Origin: Chiua virens
Lineage: Eukaryota > Basidiomycota > Agaricomycetes > Boletales > Boletaceae
Length of the DNA stretch: 64,000 bases
NCBI GenBank assembly: GCA_019787685.1
Contig: JAHNUO010000014.1
Location: 1,054,001 to 1,118,000, forward strand
Reading direction: 5' to 3'
In this document: one piece after another, positions 1,600 through 44,417 of the stretch
How positions within the stretch are numbered: the stretch's first letter is position 1
Layout of the letters: the number at the start of each line of letters is the position of its first letter
Notes under the pieces: model-generated
The model's database searches: none
Told to the model about the DNA's origin: nothing
What the model saw: only the letters and a program-made list of their open reading frames with translations
Translations under genes and position numbers: made by a program

Positions 1600-4500
1600 C
1601 TACGACTCATCATCCAGATCATCTGTACCTATGGGTTCGTACAGAGTATCGAAACTCTCCTTGTCCGTATAATAGTTGAGATAGAATTCGTCATACATCT
1701 CCTGAGATGTCGCCGTTGTCACCGTGCGATCTATGGAAGCCCCGAAGACGGGCACCAAATCAATTGCCTGAGTGACCTCCGTCAATGGGATGACAAGTCC
1801 TGTACGTGCCAACCCTGGGTGAAGGTCAGAAAAAACTCGTTTAAGCCTCCACAGCCGGGTGTCTGGCTCGTTGTCTGGAGTAGCAACGACCTCGAATGGT
1901 TGAACGTAAAGAAGGGGAAGATCCAGGAAGCCAGGAAGTTTGACTTTAGAACGAGAGGGGCTGGCTAGCTGAAAGATCACCCTAACTTGAGCAACAGGAT
2001 CTGGATACACAATCAGTATCGATTCTGTGTAACGCACAATAAAACAAACGCTTGCGCCCAGGGTTATGTTCGCTTTGGCCATCCGTATTCAGGAGAACTG
2101 CATCGCAGTGTCCAAGTGGGAAGTGGACCGAAGGAGGCTTGGCTTGGACCGCTTGACTGGGTAGGATCGTCGATGGGGAGGAGGTCGTTTGCTGTTGAAC
2201 GCGGAACTTGTACCACACCTTGACCTTGCTGAACGTCTGCAGGATCTGCTGGGCATGGTTACCACCGGTACAATGCATAACGTACTCCTGTAACTTGATG
2301 ATAAAATCGGGAAGCGCATATATGCCACACGTCTCGACTAAGCTAAGATATGAACGGTCAGGAGCCTTAGTGACCGTCATTGCTGCCTCGACACCATCGG
2401 AGATGAAACCGTTTGCGAAATGATTACGGAACGGGCGGGGGGCTTTGAAACGGAATTGTTCTTGAGGAGCAACACGAGATACCCAGGCCATGGTTGGATC
2501 CGTGTAAAATAGGCGTGCTTCCTCGTCAGCGGCGTTCACCAGGGGTTCGTTGTGTTGCTGAAGCAAGAGATACAGGTCGAAGGAACGCATGCGTTCCTCA
2601 CGATCGAGAATACGGACAACCTGCTCAGCGAAATCCCTTTGTCGGCTCGTTCGTGTGAATGGCATTTTACAATGGGTTATGAGGAGGCGCTCGCTAACAT
2701 CGGCAGTATACTGCGGTAACCCACCACTGTTCCTGATAGCGGAGGTAAAGCTTAAAAACAGCTCAAGCTTCGGGATGTTAAAGTCCTCCTTGACTGTTTT
2801 CTTCCCTCGACGTGCACCAGCTGCAAGGATAGCGTCTTTTGACGCATGAAATTCGGCCAGTGAGGCTTCCATCCTTCGGATCGACGTTTCTGTGTGCACA
2901 GGTCGTTGCGCTTGATAGATAAAGTCCATGAGAGCTCTGACAGACCGAACCATCTCGGGGGGTGCGGCGCCCGCGATCATAGCGACAATGGTACGTTGGA
3001 TATCGCGGTGTTCTCGTCCGGTCATTTGTTTCACATGTGAGACCCCCGACGTGAAGTGGCGTACTCCAATGCGCCGATGATGAGCTTTGTAGCGAGCATC
3101 AAGTTCGTCATTTCCAACTACCTCCTTGCACCATGTCAAGATATGGTCGAAGAAAAACTTGTGAAGCGTATGGAGTATTTCAGGGAGGAGGAAGCTGGAT
3201 ACTTCGCTGTTCATCCAGTCGCGCCAGCACGGGAGGTGAATACCGATAAGGCAGAACTCCTTACACAGTTTCTGAAAGTGGTCGAGGTTCCATGGATCGA
3301 CCTTGAGGCTCAGGTCATGAATCAACTGTAGAGTCTGTGATCCAGTGCGACTAGGCTGACGTTCGGCGTCGCCAAATTGCTTGACCGTTGCCAACGTGAT
3401 TGGGGATGCGTTTTTGTTCGTGCATGCGATTGTCTGTGCTTCTGGGAGGTCTGCTGTCCATCCAGCAACCGGGGTGAAACAGTAACGTGTGTTGCCGAAC
3501 GGATCAACCAAGAACGATCCTACATTGGCTGCGCGTTTCAGATTTGCGGTGACAATATCGACACATTTGTGCCAGACGCGGGACTGAAGGATAGTCTGAT
3601 AGTCGGGATGAGTGTTGAATTTAGGTATTGGCATGAAAGCAACGCATCGCCAGGCGTGGGATGTCGCCTTCATACGAACGTCCGAATCTATGTTTCCGAT
3701 CGTAATGAAAAGGGGGTGCATTTCCAGTCCACCTGTCTGCCTCGTCACCGGCGTTTTATCTGATGCAGCGATGATGGGCACAATGGTGGCCCCAGCGGGC
3801 AAAGACGACTGCCTACAACGTTAGCACCAAGCAATTAGTTAGAAGACAACACAGACCTGGATACGAAACGCTTCATCGGCCGTGAACCATTCTCCATACT
3901 CCCTATCGTCGCCATCCCAAACTTTGATGGGGTCGAATGTCATGTTCTGACCGAAGATCGGATTTCCAAAGATACTCTGCGCAACATCTAACCCGTCCCG
4001 CCATATTAACTGGATCTTCTTTTCAACTTCATAGCCGTCCACTTCGAGTTCCGTGACTTGCCACTTCGGCCCAGATGGTAGGAGGTCCATCCAATCCAGC
4101 AACTCACGAGCTGATGAAAATGCCGGTTTGGGTTTATTATCAAACTGGTCACGAAGGAGATTGATTAATACGAGAGTCAGTAACAATGAGTAGCGTTACC
4201 CAAGGAAGTTGAAGAAATGCATTGATTTGTGTTTGTGTGAAATTCTCGACGAGAAACTTGCCAAGAGACCAGTCGTCGCGGCTCGGAAAGGGCCAGTACA
4301 TATTTATCTTCCTGTTCTCGTTGTACACATCGTCTTGGAGCCGTTGAAGTGTGTTCTTGCCTGGACCGTATGTATGACCTGAGGTTGGATGGTATTGCGC
4401 TGATCGACTATCGCGCTGAGACGAGCGAAGGGCAGGGGGGAGAGAATAAGTGTAAGGCAACGATGGTGGATGGCATGATTTGACTGGATCATTCAGATGG

Positions 4501-14052: not shown

Positions 14053-17000
14053 CTAGAGCGCACCATATCCCTCCCGAGCCCAGACATCTTCGTCGAGTTC
14101 TTCTCCTTCGTCAGCAACTACAGGATCATCATCGTCAACAACCACAAGTTCTCCCTCGGCTCCATCATCCGACGACTCGTCATCTAAATCCAGTGATCCA
14201 ACACTCTCATTTCCGAGGCCTGGGTCCTCTGAAGCATCATTTTCGACTTCGATGTCTGACTCGGATCCATCAGATGTCTCGTCGATAGGAATTTTGTCGC
14301 TTCCTTGCTGTAAAATATAATCCCATTCGCGCGTTGCCTTGTGTCCGATACCGCCACCTCGGAAACGCATGAACATATCCCTGTCGACAAAGCTTCAAGT
14401 GCACGAGTGCCAGAAACCTGTTAGCCACAATTGCGACATAGAATGAGTGATAAAGATACACGGATTAACGTAAAAAAACAATGCTGATAGGATTTTCCAT
14501 CTATATATCTGACTCCCGGCTGGATAAATGATGGTGTATGGAATTCGTCTGTCACTCCAGAGGCAAAAGCGGGTATCAGGTGAACACCACGGATAACTTG
14601 GTCCGGGTTCACGAAGCCGAACGCCTGTAGTGAGTCATCCGTGTCGAAAAATGAAATGCGTTGCATGCGTTGCATGCGTTTCGCATCCCATCCTGCATCG
14701 TAAATCGAGTCACGCTGAAACCAGCGTATGAATAGAACATCCGTTCGTGTTGGTCGTGAGTACCGTGCTTTGGTATCTTCTCGATGTTCGACCATGACAT
14801 GGAATATGTATAGCACCCGAGCATACCAATACGGATGTGAGCGTTCGTCTTCCTTCGATAGCAGCATAATATCGGGTCGAGTTTGAGGATTAATCGTGTC
14901 TTGTTCTCGTCGGAGGTCATATGTTGTATAATTGACTCGCAGTAATTTGTGCTCGAATATCTTGTTATCATGGAACAGCACGCAACCACGGTCCTCATCT
15001 GAGAATTCATACTCATCACCATTATACTCCAGACCTCGGAGTCGTGCAAGAAGATGGTCTTTAAGATGAGGGATGAAATCCTAGCATGAAATCAAATCGC
15101 TGTTCAATGCGACAAACGACACAGTGACAGAATTCCTTACCTCCATAGAGGGGTCGTCTCTTCGTTCTCGCAGCCAGGCAGTGAGATCATAGCCTTGCCG
15201 TGTTGACGATGCAATATGATAGTGTTCGGCGGGAGAAGTTCGGATTCGTGACGGACGTGGTTCCAATCTTCGATTGTTGAGTACCTCGCGTGCATTGTTC
15301 ACCTTTCGGAGGAAGCGTTCCAGCGCCCCTTGGTTTGCTATGCTCGCTACCACTGAATTCTTCTTCTTTCCTGACCGGGGAAACCGCCGCTTTAAATATC
15401 GATGTTCTAGCTCGCCCTATTGACCAATCTGGTAAGTGCATCTTTCAACATACTCCATAAACGAGCACTTTACTGTTTGTGTACTATAGCTATCTGTCGT
15501 TCCATAGCGTCGAATCATATCAGGATAGTCCCCAAGTGCATGGAACTTGTATGTCGATAGATTCAGCGTCTTTATCTTCAATGCTGAGGAGACGGCAGCT
15601 GGCGTCCCACCTGACAATTGGGCCTTCTTGGAAGCTTGATGGCGTATAGGTGCTGCACTCTCTTGTGGAAGTTCCTTCGTAACGTATGCAGGGCAAACGG
15701 TCTCTTGAAATTTCCGTACGACATGCCCAAGAGATGCCGTAACGACCTCAAGGAACTTGAGGGTGTCATCTGTGTGAATGCGAAGTTTCGCAAGGGCATG
15801 CCACGTCACCAAATCGAAAAGTAGATCCATTACGATAGCATTGTCACCGGGAGGAAGCAAGTCTTCAAATACAGGCAAGGCACACTAGATCGTCGTCGTG
15901 ATTAGCAGTGAGATGCACAGAACAAAGAAGACGCACCTGCAGAAGGTCTTCGAAGTCTCGCGCAGCCAGTCGCTTCATCGATGATACATCATTGTGGAAT
16001 CTTCGGATTGTTCCACGCCCAAAAGTTGGGACCTTACGATAGCTATCATAGAGAAATTAAGATATAGCGCAATTATGAAGTTTTGAACATACCGCCGATT
16101 GAGTTGCTGGACTATGGTCTCATCCGTAGCTTGCAGGATTCGCATCAGGTGTATTAATATGGTCTTCCATGCCCCAATTCGAATTTGTGTAGAAGGTCTA
16201 CCACAAACATGCGAAAGTATTGTAGCGCCTCATCATGCTGAGATAATCGCTCAGAGAATGCATTCTGAAAGTCATAACTCCACCCCGACATATGAGTAGA
16301 TACACACTTACACGTATTGGGACAAATGACTCGTCTTTGAGAAGACGACCAACCGGTTTGCTGGTAATTTTTTTTCCCTCCTCGAATATCAATTTCCGTG
16401 CTTTTCTGATCCGTCTGCGGTAATCCGAGTTGTTGACTCTGATATTCGTCATACGGGTACGCATATGTGAGGGCTTGCCCATATCTGGGATATTTGCTTT
16501 CTTCACTCGACAGCGGGGGCAAGGACACTCTCCTAGGAACTTGATACACGCAAGTAAGATCCTAACATTTAATAAGTCAAAGAAATTGACTAGAAATGAG
16601 ATCAGATACTTACTTTTCGGGATAATCTGCAGAATAAGTGAAGAACCGAGGAAAGAACTGCCGTTCAATACCGTCAAAACAACGGATCACAATGCCGTCC
16701 TTGTACGCTTCAGCAAACTTGTCATCAAGGATCAGTTTCCAGATCCCATGCATCAATTCACGCTTGCAGTGAGTGAGAACTTCGTCGGATGACCCCTTCG
16801 TGTAATATGTTGCATGTTGATCTTGAAAGTCATCCGGTAACTAGTCAATGAGTCAGCGCCACATACAACTTGAAAAGATCACAGTCCGACGAACCGTGGG
16901 GATGTAAGCAACATGATGGCAGGCACCTGAGGTAGGTCGTCCGCGTACATACTTTGACTCGTTCCCAAAAAATAGCTAGACTGGCCAAAGAGAAGCGTCA

Positions 17001-18357
17001 CCAAAGTTTGCCAGTTGTGTTGCATCAGACCATACCATCAATGGCACGACGACCCGTTCGAGAATATCGCCAGGTTCTCGCGCACCAGAATTGATTTTCT
17101 TGTATTCCTCGAGAATCTCAGGGGATGAGTACGCTTCTGAATAGATAGTTTGTACTCGACCATCGCTCGATTTCCAGAATTGTTGAAATGGCGTCAAATG
17201 AAAATGGGAAGCTGGGTCCTGAAATGTTGAATGGATGATGTCGACGATAAAGCGATGGCCAACATTGTCGATGGTGATGGTTGGTATTTCAGGATCATCT
17301 TCAGACTTGTACCCGACTCCCTCCTTTGGCAATGGAATCTTGACAGAGCTCCGTTTGCAACCATGCTCAGCCCGAAAAGGGTTGGACTGATCCTCGAGGT
17401 ACTTCATGACAAGCCTCCGTTCTCTCTCATGTGAAAATGGCGGTTCTTTCCAAGGTTCGAAGAGGGGATCTTTGCGGTACAAAGCCGACAAACGCTCAGT
17501 TTCAGCAATAGACTTCATAATCGAACCTGGATGCTGCTCATAGTTAATTCGTACGCCCAAACGAGGGTTTGAACCTCACCTGAGTAATGGTAGCGCATCA
17601 CAAGTCCCGCTGTTGGACTACTGAAGGCACCATAAAGGTAGTGTGACGATATCTCAGGTGGAAGAACAAGACAAGACCACAGCTCATATGATTGGAAAAG
17701 AGCGGGTTTTGTTCCAATGTTGGCGCATCAACAATGGAACTGATGGCTGACTGGTAAGCGTTGGGATCGTGAGTTGGTTGCGTGGCATAAACTCGAAAGA
17801 GTCCCATGGAGTCAGGTTCTGTCGTTACTGAATTGAGAATTGATGGTACAGGTGCTGTTGTGGAAGCGGATGCAGGTGGAGGAGGTGCATGACGAAGTCC
17901 AATGAGTTCGTCAGGAATGTAGTCATCATAGCGGGCTGGTAGGCGAATTGGACGTCCAGAACGTGCAGAAATGACTGGAGGTGAGTTTGGAACTGGGAAC
18001 TGCTCATCGATCGAATCAAACTATGGTTCTGGTTAGCATCATAACATGTCTATCGAGCAAACAGTGTTACTACCTCATTTGTGGGATTGACCATCGGATC
18101 ATCTTGCCCTTTAGATGGTCCTGGATTTGAGTCTGTTGGATTGGCCTAGGAGTTAGGCAAGTGCTCGTTCTGTGGACTAGGAGAACGTTTCCGTTTCTTG
18201 CGAGCCATGCGGCGGGTGCTCTCTCTATGGTGGTGCTCTGAGAACAAAGCATCAGTGCGTTCTTTGTTTTTCTTACACTTGGATTCATGGCTTTGAGAGC
18301 TTTCTGTGTGTGGAAAGGCTTTTCACACCCAAAGCACGCAAGGTCGTCCATGAACAA
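14053..18357 (-). pseudogene. Plavaka-type DNA transposase, element 2 (decayed)
   Basis: A second, clearly different transposase of the same broad group. In order on the minus strand: an N-terminal zinc finger CFGCEKPFHTQKALKAHESK (about 18240-18350); a Pro-rich linker; a region with GHRFIVDIIHSTFQDP; the first catalytic acid in VWSDATQLANFGD (about 17010); an exon ending SADYPEK with the second acid (about 16625); and CPCPRC zinc ligands after the intron. Then come AFSERLSQ, LPPGDNAIVMDLLFDLVTWH, YKFHALGDYPDMIRRYGTTD, NYTTYDLRREQDTINPQT, HLIPAF and the C-terminal MFMRFRGGGIGHKATR with an acidic tail. A one-base loss at about 16165 (reading ELGHGRPY then stop where ELGxWK is expected) breaks the frame. 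Multiple normal introns remain. Confidence 0.8.
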
Positions 18358-38932: not shown

Positions 38933-40453
38933 ATGCCACGGACGCTCCGAACCGCAAAGAAATCGACAGGAGGTTCGGGAAAGCGCAAGCAGATACCCAC
39001 TGAGGAATTGGATGGGAACGTTGGGAAACGTGTGCGCCTGGATGAGGCGCTGATATCTCGGGTACGTCGCAACTATATCACACATCATTAATCCGATTCA
39101 AGTGCTGTTGCAGTTCTGCTCTCTCTGTCAGGACGGGGGTGATCTCTTTTCTTGCCACCAGTGCCCACGCTTTGTCTGCACTCGCTGCATTGAAATACCT
39201 CATCAGCACCGCAGTACTGTAGCTGCTAATGACGTGCAGTTCACATGTGTATCCTGCCATTGGCTTCAAGAGCAGCGAATAGAATCGAATGCCCCCTACT
39301 TGGTAAGTCTTTTCTTTTCTTTTCTTATTGTGTTTTCACTGGCTGATGCAGCCGAGGGTTTTACTCGCAACGGACAACCTGTGTTGCCTTCTTTCTTGAG
39401 GGTAACCGGGTCTTTTGAGCTCGGAAGTTCCTCGCTGGTACAGAGTCCTCGGACTTTGTACATTAGCATTCACCTGGCTTCCCTCAGTATCACGGGACTC
39501 AGTCAGTTGATTGAGATTTCGTTGAGGCAGTATTTTCCTCGAGCTGGACTCGACTGCTTGACCCTCCCGTTTGATGTGGGGGCAGATGCTGCAATGGATC
39601 TGTGGCCTATCAACGTTGCATGCCACCTCCGGCCCCTTGCCTCCAGCTACGACAAAGTGGTTTTTCTGGTGACAAACCACACTGATGCAGATACGGGGGA
39701 CCTTTTCCTTGGGAGGGATGAGAATGGAGTGGAGCAAGCTGCTGAGGTTGATCAGGTGCGTGTTGTTTTAGTTTGAGTTTAAATTTCATTCTTCCAACAT
39801 CCCTGACAGTTTTTGAACTCCGTTCTGGGTCCCTTTGCGCCGTATCTCGGAGGATCCACCCTGTACTTCGTTTCGTGTGGGTCCATGGTCAATAACAAGG
39901 ACTCCTCCCTCAAGCTCCGCACCGCCATCCAGTCGTAAGTGATATTTATTTCACTTTGCATGTTCTGACACTGTTTAGTTTCAATATTCAGCATGTACTG
40001 GCCTTTGATGCTGCGCATCTGCAGGCCGTCACGGTTTCTGAGTTGTTAATACGCTTGACTTTGGGCACGGTTATCATGGGACATGAATTCGTGAAGTGCT
40101 TGGAGTCCAATCTGCAGGAGATGGGTGACCTTGGTCGTCATTCCTCGATTTTGCACTTCCACCAAGATCAGGTAATTCGTTACACCTGGGCCCACAAAAA
40201 TATCCAACCTTGGGGGGAGCGCACCCCGGTGCAATGCCCCCAATGTGGAATACTCCAAAAGTGGGAGCCTGTGTACTTGCCTAATAGCAACTATTCGTTC
40301 GAGTGTAAGAACGAAGCTTGCGGTGAGTGTGGCGGTCAAGGAGGGGACAAGAAGGTGGAAAGGTATGCTTTCTTGGTCAAACGTCCACAGTGTGAAGTCC
40401 TTCACAACAAGCGGAAGACACCTTGGGCCTGGCTCAAGGCGGTCATCACTTAA
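38933..40453 (+). CDS. Histone H3-tail mimic with PHD-like finger, possible caspase-like core and zinc ribbon
   Basis: Five exons join without a stop: 38933-39061, 39114-39302, 39357-39755, 39810-39934, 39979-40453 (phases 0,0,0,2), giving 438 residues. Residues 2-20 match the histone H3 tail colinearly without gaps: after PRT come TAKKSTGG and RKQ, where H3 has TARKSTGG and RKQ. Residues 44 to about 97 form a zinc finger, FCSLCQDGGDLFSCHQC then C..C and FTCVSCH, like a PHD finger. The middle has VVFLVTNHTDADTGDLFLG and, about 45 residues later, LYFVSCGSM, a spacing like the His/Cys pair of caspase/CHAT folds. The C-terminus has CPQCG and CKNEACGEC. I infer nuclear, chromatin-related action. 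Function is unknown. It belongs to an expanded mushroom family as I recall it; a paralog is at 57395. Confidence 0.75.
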
Positions 40454-40785: not shown

Positions 40786-42000
40786 AGATTTATGTCTACT
40801 ACGCTAGTGATAATGATACATGATGTATCATACAATGGTCATTGCAATGCAACCACAGTGGTGGTGGGACGCTCGCGGTACCGTCAGCATTGTCGTCGCC
40901 GTCATCGACATGGTGATTGGTGGCATGTACTTGCATCGCCGCCGACTTCCTCGTTGGTGGTGGTGGTGGCACACATAATCGTTGGGGTTGTTGTCCTCAT
41001 CATCCTCGCATCCTCGTGTTGTTGTCAGCGCTGTCCCCGCGTCATTGGATTTTCATTGTTCTCATATCCTCGCGTCGATGTGGTGGCACGGTCCATGCTG
41101 TCGCCGTCGCCATCGTTGTGGCGGTAGACCGCTGTCGCGTTTCCATCCTCGATGTCATCGCGGGACCACGTTGGTGGTAGTGGGGCTGATCCCGTTGTCA
41201 TCGGTGATGGTGTACTGACCCTGTCCATTGGTGGTGGTGGCACGCAGTTGTGTTGCTGCGCCCTCGATGTCGTTGTGGCGGTGCATCCAAGTGCCAGGCC
41301 GTCACTGTGATCTGTCGGTGGTGGCACGCTGTTGCGTCGCCCTCGCCCTCGTCGTAATGGCGCGTTGCTGCCGTCCTCGTGGTGGTTGCATGTCGCTGCA
41401 CCGTTGTCGTTGTCCCCACGGTGGTGGGGGGCACGCATTGGCGCCGCCGTCATGACGGCGTGTCGCTGCCGTTGTCGTCGACGTTGCTGTGGTGGCACAA
41501 CGTCGCCGTCGTGGTGGTGAGTCGTTGTCGTTGCGGTGTGGCACGCTGTTGCATCGCCCTCGCCCTTGACGTCGCTGCCGTTGTCGTGGGTGGTGGTGCC
41601 ACGCCGTCGTGGTAGTGGCGGTGGACATCGCTGTCGTGCAGTGAGGAGTCGTCGTCGTTGTAGTGTGGCACTGTGCTGTTGCGTTGCCCTCGCCCTCGCC
41701 CTCGCCCTCGTCGTCGTCGTCGTCGTCGTGACAGCGTATTGGTGCCATCCTCGTCGTTGTGGCATGACGCTGCTGCCGCCACTGTCATGGTGGTGCCACT
41801 TCATTGTCATTGTCGATGTGGTTGTAGTCTTTGTCGTCGTCACAGTCGTCGTTGTCATTGTGGCGGCATACCGTCGTGTTTTCCTCGCCCTCGATGTTGT
41901 CGTTATGGTGGTGGTGGTGGGCTTGGTGGCATGGTACTGGCCTCGTTGTGTCGCCGTAGTGGTTATGATGGTGGTAGCATGTTGACGTGGTAGCGTGCAG
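40786..42000. repeat. GTC/GTT trinucleotide-like degenerate satellite
   Basis: About 1.2 kb dominated by GTCGTCGTT, GTGGTGG and CGCCCTCGCC words. A phrase like GTGGCACGCTGTTGCRTCGCCCTCG recurs near 41085, 41245, 41325, 41538, 41665 and 41865 at irregular spacing of about 75 to 210 bp. The strong three-base bias opens very long Thr/His/Arg-rich frames on the minus strand (41025-42086) and Val/Cys/Ser-rich ones on the plus strand. None has a start context or family, so I reject them as genes. Confidence 0.8.
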
Positions 42001-43089: not shown

Positions 43090-44417
43090 ATGGAAAAGAA
43101 TCTGGCGGATCGCTTGTTACATCAACTGCGCATGGTTCTCCAGGAGACAACTCGAGGCCTTGTTTTCCTGGATGGCTTAGCCAACACAAAGAAGATACAA
43201 AAACCTAGGTATTTCGTTCTCTTTACGTTGGCTTTTTTTGTTTTCACTGTCTGAGAAACTTTCCAGACTGAGGGCCAGAGGCTTGGTGGAGATTTTGAGC
43301 CAAAATTTAGACCAGCAACCTTGTTCTGTCACTTCGGGCTTGGCGGACGTCGAAGTGAAGCGCTGTGCTGCCTTGATTGCGGCCGCCTTCTTCAACCCAC
43401 GTAAGTAGGTACGGCAGTTTAAAATGCTGCGCGGCTGATTGTGTTAGTCCCAGTTAATTGGGATTACGACAGGTTTGTTGAATCAGAGGCCAGGAGGTCT
43501 ACCAAGTATTTCCGGGTCCACAGTTTGGGTTCCATAACCAAACCCTCCACAATTGTGGACCTGCACGGCAGAATTTTGGCCTGGTACCTCCCAGAGTTAC
43601 TTCTCCCTCACCAAGTGGTGCGTCCTTCAGGTAATAGTGAATGGGATCAAGCTCATGTCCAAGGTAGGAACAGTGGAATAGTTCCATTTTGATGTTGCGA
43701 GATCTACTAGATTTATCTGGCCCAGAAAGTGGTTCCTCTTGGCGATCTCAAGGGTTTCTCACGGGCAATACCTCTGTATTTGGCATTGGGAGGCTTGTCA
43801 TCTCAGTTGGCAGGTTGATTCAGGGTCACAAAGTGGGTTTTGGTTGTCTTATCTCGTAGGACCTTGTTGACCAAGAAAGTAAGCGTCTCGTTGATCCAAT
43901 TTACCCCTCACCTTCCCTCAAATGTGATGAGATTCAAAAATGGCTCTGCGTCATAGAGCCATTGGAGCAGCTCCTGGATGCCGTTCTCAGGGTGGTACAT
44001 CCTGAGATGTGGGCAGCAAATCAGGCAGCCACCGAGTTGTTGATTAAACAGTTAAAGGAGCCCATCCCAATATGGCCGAGTTGTTATCCTGGTATGGATG
44101 TCATTGTCAACCGTGTAACGCAAAAGCACTGTGACCTGGGTGGTGCTACCTCCTTTTATGACCACTTGATAAGCTTAGGTCAGGGTCATGATGCCAAACT
44201 TTGCCTGGATGATCTTCAAGCAGAGTTTGCTTATTTGCCAGGAACCAGTATTCTGTTTGCCGGAAAGGGGTTGGCCCACTCGGTGCCAATGTGGTCCAAG
44301 GGGGAGAGGGTAGTCATTGCACATTATTCCAAGGATGATGTACACGACAGGCTGGAGGTCAAGCGACCATCACTACCCTCCCAGTTACAGTGGTTGCTAA
44401 TCCATAACCATAACTAA
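43090..44417 (+). CDS. TET/JBP-family 2-oxoglutarate/Fe(II) dioxygenase
   Basis: TET/JBP enzymes oxidise methylpyrimidines in DNA and are expanded in basidiomycetes. Exon 1 (43090-43208) starts MEKNLADRLLHQLRMVLQE. Exon 2 is 43267-43400 and exon 3 starts at 43448 (phases 2 then 1). Exon 3 holds the family signature STIVDLHGRILAWYLPELLL. After two or three further small introns between 43618 and about 43860 comes the catalytic part. It has the HxD iron ligands in RVTQKHCDLGG (about 44127), the distal His in GLAHSVPMW (about 44275) and the 2-oxoglutarate Arg in GERVVIAHYSKDD. The stop is at 44417. All key residues are present, so it may be active. The small-exon boundaries in the middle are not certain. 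No KDZ transposase is visible nearby, although such genes often travel with KDZ elements. Confidence 0.8.

Follow-up and report, generated by a model that had tools for sequence, protein, structure and literature searches.

Histone mimicry is known from viruses, and DNMT3A provides an example of autoinhibition that involves an ADD domain and H3. G9a/GLP and PAF15 are host proteins without the gene layout described below. As in the protein studied here, an H3-like sequence is present in a non-histone protein in both cases (G9a/GLP, PMC9768651; PAF15, PMC7060239). TET+ Kyakuja transposons have been reported in Boletales, and their escape from methylation was proposed (Kojima 2025, PMC12730594); an H3-like, PHD or peptidase protein was not found in the main text of that report.

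The window, i.e., the whole stretch of 64,000 nucleotides analysed here, comprises positions 1054001-1118000 of contig C14 within the 48.3-Mb genome of Chiua virens. On its plus strand a gene at 38933..40453 encodes 438 aa in five exons (38933-39061, 39114-39302, 39357-39755, 39810-39934 and 39979-40453), separated by GT-AG introns of 44-54 nt. Exon 1 has a GT donor and joins the four other exons in phase, and the splice model is free of stops. The protein is identical over its full length to JVU11DRAFT_9335 of Chiua virens (P0002), which indicates that the public annotation chose the same gene model. The gene is intact in sequence, as originally predicted, with an exon structure given by the splice model and the public annotation. 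Its product consists, in this order, of an H3-like tail, a PHD/ADD-like finger, a caspase/CHAT-like part and a putative zinc ribbon. A Pfam scan of this protein returned no family over cut-off (CEBP_ZZ reached 16.7 bits against 29.8), no peptidase match and no histone domain, i.e., the histone fold is absent. The window protein is not a histone, as its remainder is made up of finger, CHAT-like part and ribbon.

Exon 1 (38933-39061) translates to MPRTLRTAKKSTGGSGKRKQIPTEELDGNVGKRVRLDEALISR, and the H3-like block encoded in it is MPRTLRTAKKSTGGSGKRKQIPTEEL. Residues 2-23 (38936..39001, plus strand) align without a gap to H3 positions 1-22 with 13/22 identities, and the codon at the H3K9 position (38960..38962, plus strand) specifies lysine. 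Shuffles of the same residues never reached 13 identities (0/200,000, maximum 12), and a phmmer search of PDB sequences with the 43-aa exon 1 has histone H3.3 as its best match (E 0.0023). The resemblance of the window gene to the H3 tail is real and not a product of chance. The original prediction had proposed precisely this ungapped match from residue 2, and the kept and changed residues that it listed are all correct; only the changes of A1 to Pro and A21 to Pro have to be added. In the structure model of the window copy the tail is disordered, with a pLDDT of about 25-28.

Two protein searches yielded 17 relatives besides the query (P0003-P0019), from Chiua, Amanita, Boletus, Lanmaoa, Tylopilus, Suillus, Melanogaster and Pisolithus together with one metagenome protein, and 46 matches in the Chiua virens genome were grouped into 14 loci. 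Conservation of the H3-like block across homologs had been named beforehand as the test of the prediction, and the block recurs in relatives from Chiua, Boletus, Suillus, Melanogaster, Pisolithus and Amanita. Our tail comparison is based on 13 distinct ungapped tails, seven of them from Chiua loci (the five near-identical copies counted as one) and six from other species. Excluded from this count are P0009, P0012 and P0015, which are of the same types as P0008 or P0014; the models without a tail (P0003, P0006, P0007, P0010 and P0016); a copy with a stop codon in the tail (C5:2064 kb); a variant of the five-copy group that keeps K9 (C10:943 kb, PRTHQMAKKSTGG); the C9 and C83 Chiua copies (MTRTKVTIRLGRPRDP, without K9); and the deleted tail type of three Suillus proteins (P0011, P0013 and P0017, with MARTKIKSTGGSAR, MARTKIWSTGGSAS and MARTKIQSTGGSAR, respectively), where the K9 position is Lys in one protein and lost in the other two. 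For P0003 (JVU11DRAFT_11030) and the five near-identical copies, the public gene model lacks the tail exon and begins in a different frame; the H3-like block itself is present in the DNA.

Four residues that agree with H3, namely T6, K9, T11 and G12, are invariant across the 13 tails. Agreement with H3 amounts to 12/13 at T3, 10/13 at Q5, G13, A15 and R17, 9/13 at R2, 8/13 at A7 and likewise at L20 (Leu, Ile or Val in 13/13), 7/13 at A1, 6/13 at K4, 5/13 at S10 and P16, and 2/13 at K18. R8 and K14 are each kept in a single tail and K23 in none; position 8 is Lys in 10/13 tails, and new lysines are found at positions 8 and 16 of the mimic tails (position 16 in 6/13). A total loss of K14 is a wrong description, as the C11 copy keeps it. 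Retention of K9, S10 and K18 along with removal of K4 and K14, as first described, is an accurate account of the window tail, and across the family it holds for K9 and, with the one exception, for K14. It does not extend to S10 and K18, which are mostly replaced, nor to K4, for which the family displays no systematic loss.

Over H3 positions 1-17 the 13 tails have between 9/17 and 15/17 identities, with the highest value in Pisolithus (MARTKQTARKATGGSAPR) and 14/17 in Melanogaster. A profile of the 13 tails matches histone H3 in the PDB at E 4.3e-12, and of the 137 PDB sequences found with E no greater than 1, the best 60 consist entirely of H3, H3 peptides and H3-type variants. With H3 as the query, a whole-genome search at the same limit of E yielded 26 matches, of which we place 21 in histone loci and five in mimic-family tails. 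A tail-only protein search, in which a small set of 23 candidates was scored, returned P0002 alone.

A Met directly precedes the H3-like block in 11/13 tails, followed by Ala, Pro, Val or Thr, residues which at position 2 permit removal of the Met. Three of these 11 starts are uncertain: the deposited Pisolithus model starts about 80 residues earlier and was cut at the Met for the tail comparison, and in-frame ATGs also lie ahead of the tail Met in the C2 and C11 copies. In the five near-identical Chiua copies the block is preceded by an extension of eight or nine residues (MAPKSSSNLPRTRQ...), and the Amanita model has the block internally, behind a long N-terminal extension. The suggestion that the match begins right after the initiator Met consequently stands for the window copy and most tails, and fails for the five-copy type and Amanita.

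The window copy and the five-copy type are identical at 291 of 431 aligned residues. The pN/pS ratio calculated from this pair is 0.29 overall and, by part, 0.27 (tail), 0.70 (linker beside the tail), 0.24 (finger), 0.33 (CHAT-like part) and 0.19 (C-terminal part); all of these are rough values, with 21 codons each for tail and linker and synonymous sites near saturation. Mean pairwise identity, computed without P0009, P0012 and P0015, is 0.51 for the tail (45 pairs), 0.45 for the finger (36), 0.32 for the CHAT-like part (87) and 0.39 for the C-terminal part (91). The tail is about as conserved as the folded parts of the mimic protein, which suggests that it derives from H3 and is held by selection. 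A captured H3 N-terminus is the best fit to these observations, the derivation being suggested by similarity. The capture of a bare first exon was considered and fails, because in two H3 genes of Chiua, both on C20, the split falls within codon 13 and the mimic tails remain H3-like beyond it, through A15, R17 and position 20. In a Suillus structure model, the only part of the tail at moderate confidence is residues 13-27, after the K9 position.

The PHD-like finger of the original prediction is likewise present, directly after the tail exon (residues 44-97; 39114..39275, plus strand), and displays a Cys8 pattern. Our finger alignment (A3) consists of ten rows, one of which is the five-copy type and the other nine family proteins; it does not include P0015 and P0017, and P0003, P0006, P0007, P0010, P0012, P0013 and P0019 are left out as well, the finger being wholly or partly missing in these 7/18 models. 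Searched against the PDB, the A3 profile matches CHD4 at E 6.7e-8 (two fingers, in the first half of the profile), SP140 at 1.4e-5 and the ATRX ADD at 1.5e-5 (over nearly the whole profile), and also PHF21A, MLL and AIRE. The Pfam PHD model scores the window finger at 12.7 bits, under its gathering score of 24, and still the family profile reaches CHD4 and ATRX. The zinc ligands follow PHD spacing, with C2, C5, C14, C17, C22, C45 and C48 invariant and C25 present in nine of the ten rows; the fifth ligand is a Cys, not the canonical PHD His, in all ten, and the same is seen in the alignment with the ATRX ADD.

Both CHD4 and the ATRX ADD recognise H3 that is unmodified at K4 and methylated at K9. 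The window tail, with Pro at position 1 and Leu at position 4, is probably bound more weakly by a finger of the K4me0 type than are the tails of its Suillus or Melanogaster relatives. A profile of the whole family matches H3 itself weakly, at E 0.08 and above, and weakly spans engineered H3-reader fusions in one stretch: 8ge0 (H3.1 with Jade-1, E 0.048), 3a1b (H3.1 with DNMT3A, 0.13) and 2l43 (H3.3 with Bromodomain-containing protein 1, 0.15). In these fusions the H3 tail stands ahead of the reader, as it does in the mimic protein.

Two features escaped the original prediction, a caspase/CHAT-like domain and a link to TET+ Kyakuja elements. The former is predicted from structure models of two distant family members, in which a caspase/CHAT fold (clan CD) follows tail and finger; in the window protein it covers residues about 133-345 (39435..40171, plus strand, with two introns inside). 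Structure matches of the modelled domain include SAVED-CHAT, Csx29 and caspases, at 5-15% sequence identity in the rows compared, and the Foldseek list above E 0.001 also contains unrelated folds (FlaH, Argonaute, flavodoxin-like). The candidate catalytic residues His214 (39678..39680, plus strand) and Cys262 (39876..39878, plus strand, after a hydrophobic strand) are located at the ends of two core strands in the models. The His is invariant in the family alignment A1 and its motif is found in 17/18 family proteins, and His and Cys occur together in 15/18; the three proteins without the full dyad (P0010, P0013 and P0018) are probably faulty models. A pattern search of the Chiua copies recovered the His motif in 12/13 loci and the Cys motif in 8/13. 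The structure matches include c-FLIP, a caspase relative that is itself inactive, so the fold does not show activity. Behind this domain lies the putative zinc ribbon (CPQC ... C....C; 40235..40321, plus strand), of which C370 and C390 are invariant and C367 and C395 nearly invariant in alignment A1.

The transposon link is indicated in the window by a TET/JBP dioxygenase gene of at least two exons (43435..44417, plus strand; Pfam Tet_JBP E 1.2e-11), 3.5 kb downstream of the mimic gene and on the same strand. Its identity to the TET gene of Kyakuja copy B is 69% for one exon of the latter and 77% for another; copy B carries CxC2 (E 1.1e-29), KDZ (5.7e-30) and Tet_JBP (2.8e-13). No KDZ transposase was found within 15 kb of the window gene, and the window copy itself is not a complete element, as it has only the TET neighbour and this in a rearranged position. 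Nine of the 14 Chiua loci share one layout: upstream of the mimic gene and on the opposite strand lie TET/JBP, at a distance of 3.0-3.9 kb, and KDZ, at 5.2-12.7 kb. TET/JBP is present within 15 kb at 10/14 loci, and four loci lack both TET and KDZ. For these counts 19/124 KDZ matches were tabulated, and the others were inspected by eye on the contigs of the window and the four lone loci. Next to at least seven other TET-KDZ pairs (contigs C21, C17, C26, C4, C28, C11 and C23) no mimic gene could be detected.

The C5 and C25 copies share 16.7 kb end to end at 98.9%, with unlike DNA past the right end. Among the five near-identical coding sequences, each of which specifies 441 aa, there are differences at 2-20 of 1323 nt. 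Such near-identical copies point to recent movement. Alternatively, they may have been duplicated by means other than transposition, and in agreement with this no clear target-site duplication of the element was found; of the ends expected as CA..TG with 7-bp target duplications, the right end is seen in two copies and the left end lies inside a tandem array. Judged from the arrangement of its loci, the mimic gene family travels with TET+ Kyakuja elements.

Several further features were recorded in and around these elements. The transposase end of the element (C5:2307428 onward) contains a tandem array with a unit length of roughly 75 bp, a minisatellite is found between TET and mimic gene (L022 2785-3871), and in the window a long GTC/GTG-rich simple repeat (40860-42000) separates the mimic gene from TET. 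Downstream of the mimic gene, the shared 16.7-kb unit contains a 405-aa reading frame (L021 7506-8723) with no Pfam match over cut-off. Elsewhere in the window, a Plavaka transposase match with DUF6830 is located at 1982-3820 on the minus strand, and another fragment, which narrowly misses the Plavaka cut-off, at 16976-17575, likewise on the minus strand.

Differences among the near-identical Kyakuja copies (C5, C25, C12 and C10) are mostly C>T or G>A and largely at CpG, as read against the C25 copy as reference and with directions that are not polarised by an outgroup. In the gene region of the C10 copy this applies to 16 of 20 differences, with CpG bases accounting for about 10% of the sites. 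This bias fits a decay of methylated cytosine, with the element as a target of silencing. Hypermutation is cited as not detected in Agaricomycotina (Kojima 2025, PMC12730594). The genome contains matches to Pre-SET (1), DNA methylase (3) and SRA (8, seven of which are over cut-off). Searches of the genome for the chromoshadow domain (for HP1) and for RFTS (for DNMT1) gave no match, and their controls were equally silent. Many of the 150 listed chromodomain matches belong to reading frames close to 1290 or 1650 aa in length; frames of this size with a chromodomain are typical of retrotransposon polyproteins, and these matches consequently say nothing about HP1.

The reading towards which we lean, and which we hold tentatively, is that the mimic protein is a transposon-linked anti-silencing accessory protein that works as a switch of tail, reader and effector. 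The element would have captured an H3 tail that serves against host silencing, and this K9-type tail would act as a built-in ligand, in cis for the finger and/or in trans for host proteins that methylate or read H3K9. The tail might hold the protease-like domain inactive, or tether the protein, until the tail is exchanged for genuine H3 at silenced chromatin; the released caspase-like domain would then act locally on chromatin proteins, TET would meanwhile oxidise methylcytosine, and the element would escape silencing. The invariant core of K9 with T6, T11 and G12 coincides with the stretch of H3 that heterochromatin proteins target. We favour an anti-silencing role because of this K9-centred core, the H3-reading class of the finger, the TET neighbour and the Pre-SET, DNA methylase and SRA matches in the host. 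The action in cis is suggested by the layout and by analogy to DNMT3A and the H3-reader fusions, and the action in trans by the K9-centred conservation. Both kinds of reading have precedents, the one in PAF15 with the UHRF1 PHD (PMC7060239) and the other in G9a (PMC9768651). What goes beyond the conserved H3-like tail, the finger, the predicted caspase fold and the transposon linkage are steps that we infer. Several observations speak against the switch. They include the disordered tail in the window model, the absence of KDZ from the window and of both TET and KDZ from four loci, the TET-KDZ pairs without a mimic gene, the incomplete recovery of the His and Cys motifs in the Chiua copies, the unrelated folds in the Foldseek list and the match to the inactive c-FLIP. 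In addition, PHD/ADD fingers of such kind usually grip the N-terminal ARTK end, which is not the constant part of the mimic tails (A1 in 7/13, R2 in 9/13 and K4 in 6/13), and K9 is lost in two of the three deleted-type Suillus tails and in the C9 and C83 copies.

A possible but rather doubtful alternative is a pure decoy in trans, in which the host methylates K9 of the tail, HP1-like or SRA/UHRF1-like readers are soaked up, and finger and protease-like part have separate roles. Its strength is the invariant core of K9 with T6, T11 and G12 and the rarity of K18 (2/13) and K23 (0/13), both of which are ubiquitin acceptors in H3. K14, which is ubiquitylated by CLRC to stimulate Clr4 (PMC10135481), is likewise kept in 1/13 tails only, and the H3-like motifs of G9a/GLP, once automethylated, bind HP1 (PMC9768651). 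Such a decoy leaves the position of the finger next to the tail unexplained, and S10 varies freely. Moreover, several K9 methyltransferases need R8, which is Lys in 10/13 tails, and the new lysines at positions 8 and 16 (6/13) likewise count against the decoy.

An unlikely reading, all of its parts taken together, is that the captured H3 tail as a K9 decoy, its own reader, the caspase-like protease and TET form a kit against silencing by histone and DNA methylation; it draws on the retention of the K9 surroundings, along with the loss of K14 in 12/13, K18 in 11 and K23 in all 13 tails, lysines whose ubiquitylation recruits the methylation machinery. That the caspase/CHAT-like domain is an H3 tail protease that cuts its own H3-like tail for activation appears quite improbable to us: self-processing is common in clan CD and would suit the predicted peptidase fold with its His/Cys pair, but the 26 tail positions compared include no constant Asp, and activity of the domain does not follow from its predicted fold.

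We give still less credence to a targeting tag, by which the tail would dock the element's own transposase, TET or a host PHD/UHRF1-like reader and bring the transposition machinery to particular chromatin. The PHD finger of UHRF1 reads the H3-like N-terminus of PAF15 (PMC7060239), and SRA matches are present in the Chiua virens genome. No reader was identified in the element itself, and to our knowledge no histone-reading role has been described for the CxC2 part of the KDZ transposase. A relic, i.e., an H3 tail that was fused once and is now a generic basic disordered N-terminus, is very improbable; deleted or degenerate tails in some lineages (the MARTKIKSTGGSAR type and the MTRTKVTIRLGRPRDP of C9/C83) would agree with it, but selection on the tail resembles that on the folded parts and not that on the relaxed linker (21 codons each), and specific residues are invariant beyond what charge alone demands. 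That a single gene resembles H3 by chance or convergence, for which one could cite the E of only 0.0023 of the window copy alone, is ruled out by the shuffles, the family profile (E 4.3e-12), the identities of the Pisolithus and Melanogaster tails and the genome-wide H3 search, in which, by our reading, 5/26 matches lie in mimic-gene copies and 21 in histone loci.

Histone mimicry has been described before, and so has the evasion of silencing by transposons. In the part of the literature covered, we found no combination of the two in a transposon-linked gene with an H3 tail, let alone in one that joins this tail to a histone reader and a caspase-like domain. If the switch of tail, reader and effector that we favour is functional, fungal transposons would counter histone-based as well as DNA-based silencing. 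The natural variants of tail, reader and protease could be used to test which H3 residues matter to mushroom silencing, and they already separate the kept K9, T6, T11 and G12 from the changed R8, K14 and K23.

Compared with known systems, the mimic loci have the same pairing of KDZ transposase and TET/JBP as the TET+ Kyakuja elements reported from Agaricomycetes (PMC12730594). With G9a/GLP (PMC9768651) and PAF15 (PMC7060239) they share an H3-like sequence in a non-histone protein, for which K9-type methylation or PHD reading is described there and proposed here. The mimic gene differs from both in that 17-22 tail residues are placed ahead of a reader and a caspase-like domain, and in that it is linked to a transposon. 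The DNMT3A ADD and the fusions 3a1b, 2l43 and 8ge0 likewise combine an H3 tail with a reader of PHD/ADD type, and a tail-controlled switch is possibly shared with them; these fusions are laboratory constructs, whereas the layout of the mimic is natural and its effector has a caspase/CHAT-like fold. With the CHAT/caspase peptidases (SAVED-CHAT, Csx29 and caspases) it shares, by prediction, this fold with His and Cys at strand ends, but sequence identity is as low as 5-15% and the domain of the mimic is fused to a histone tail and a finger.
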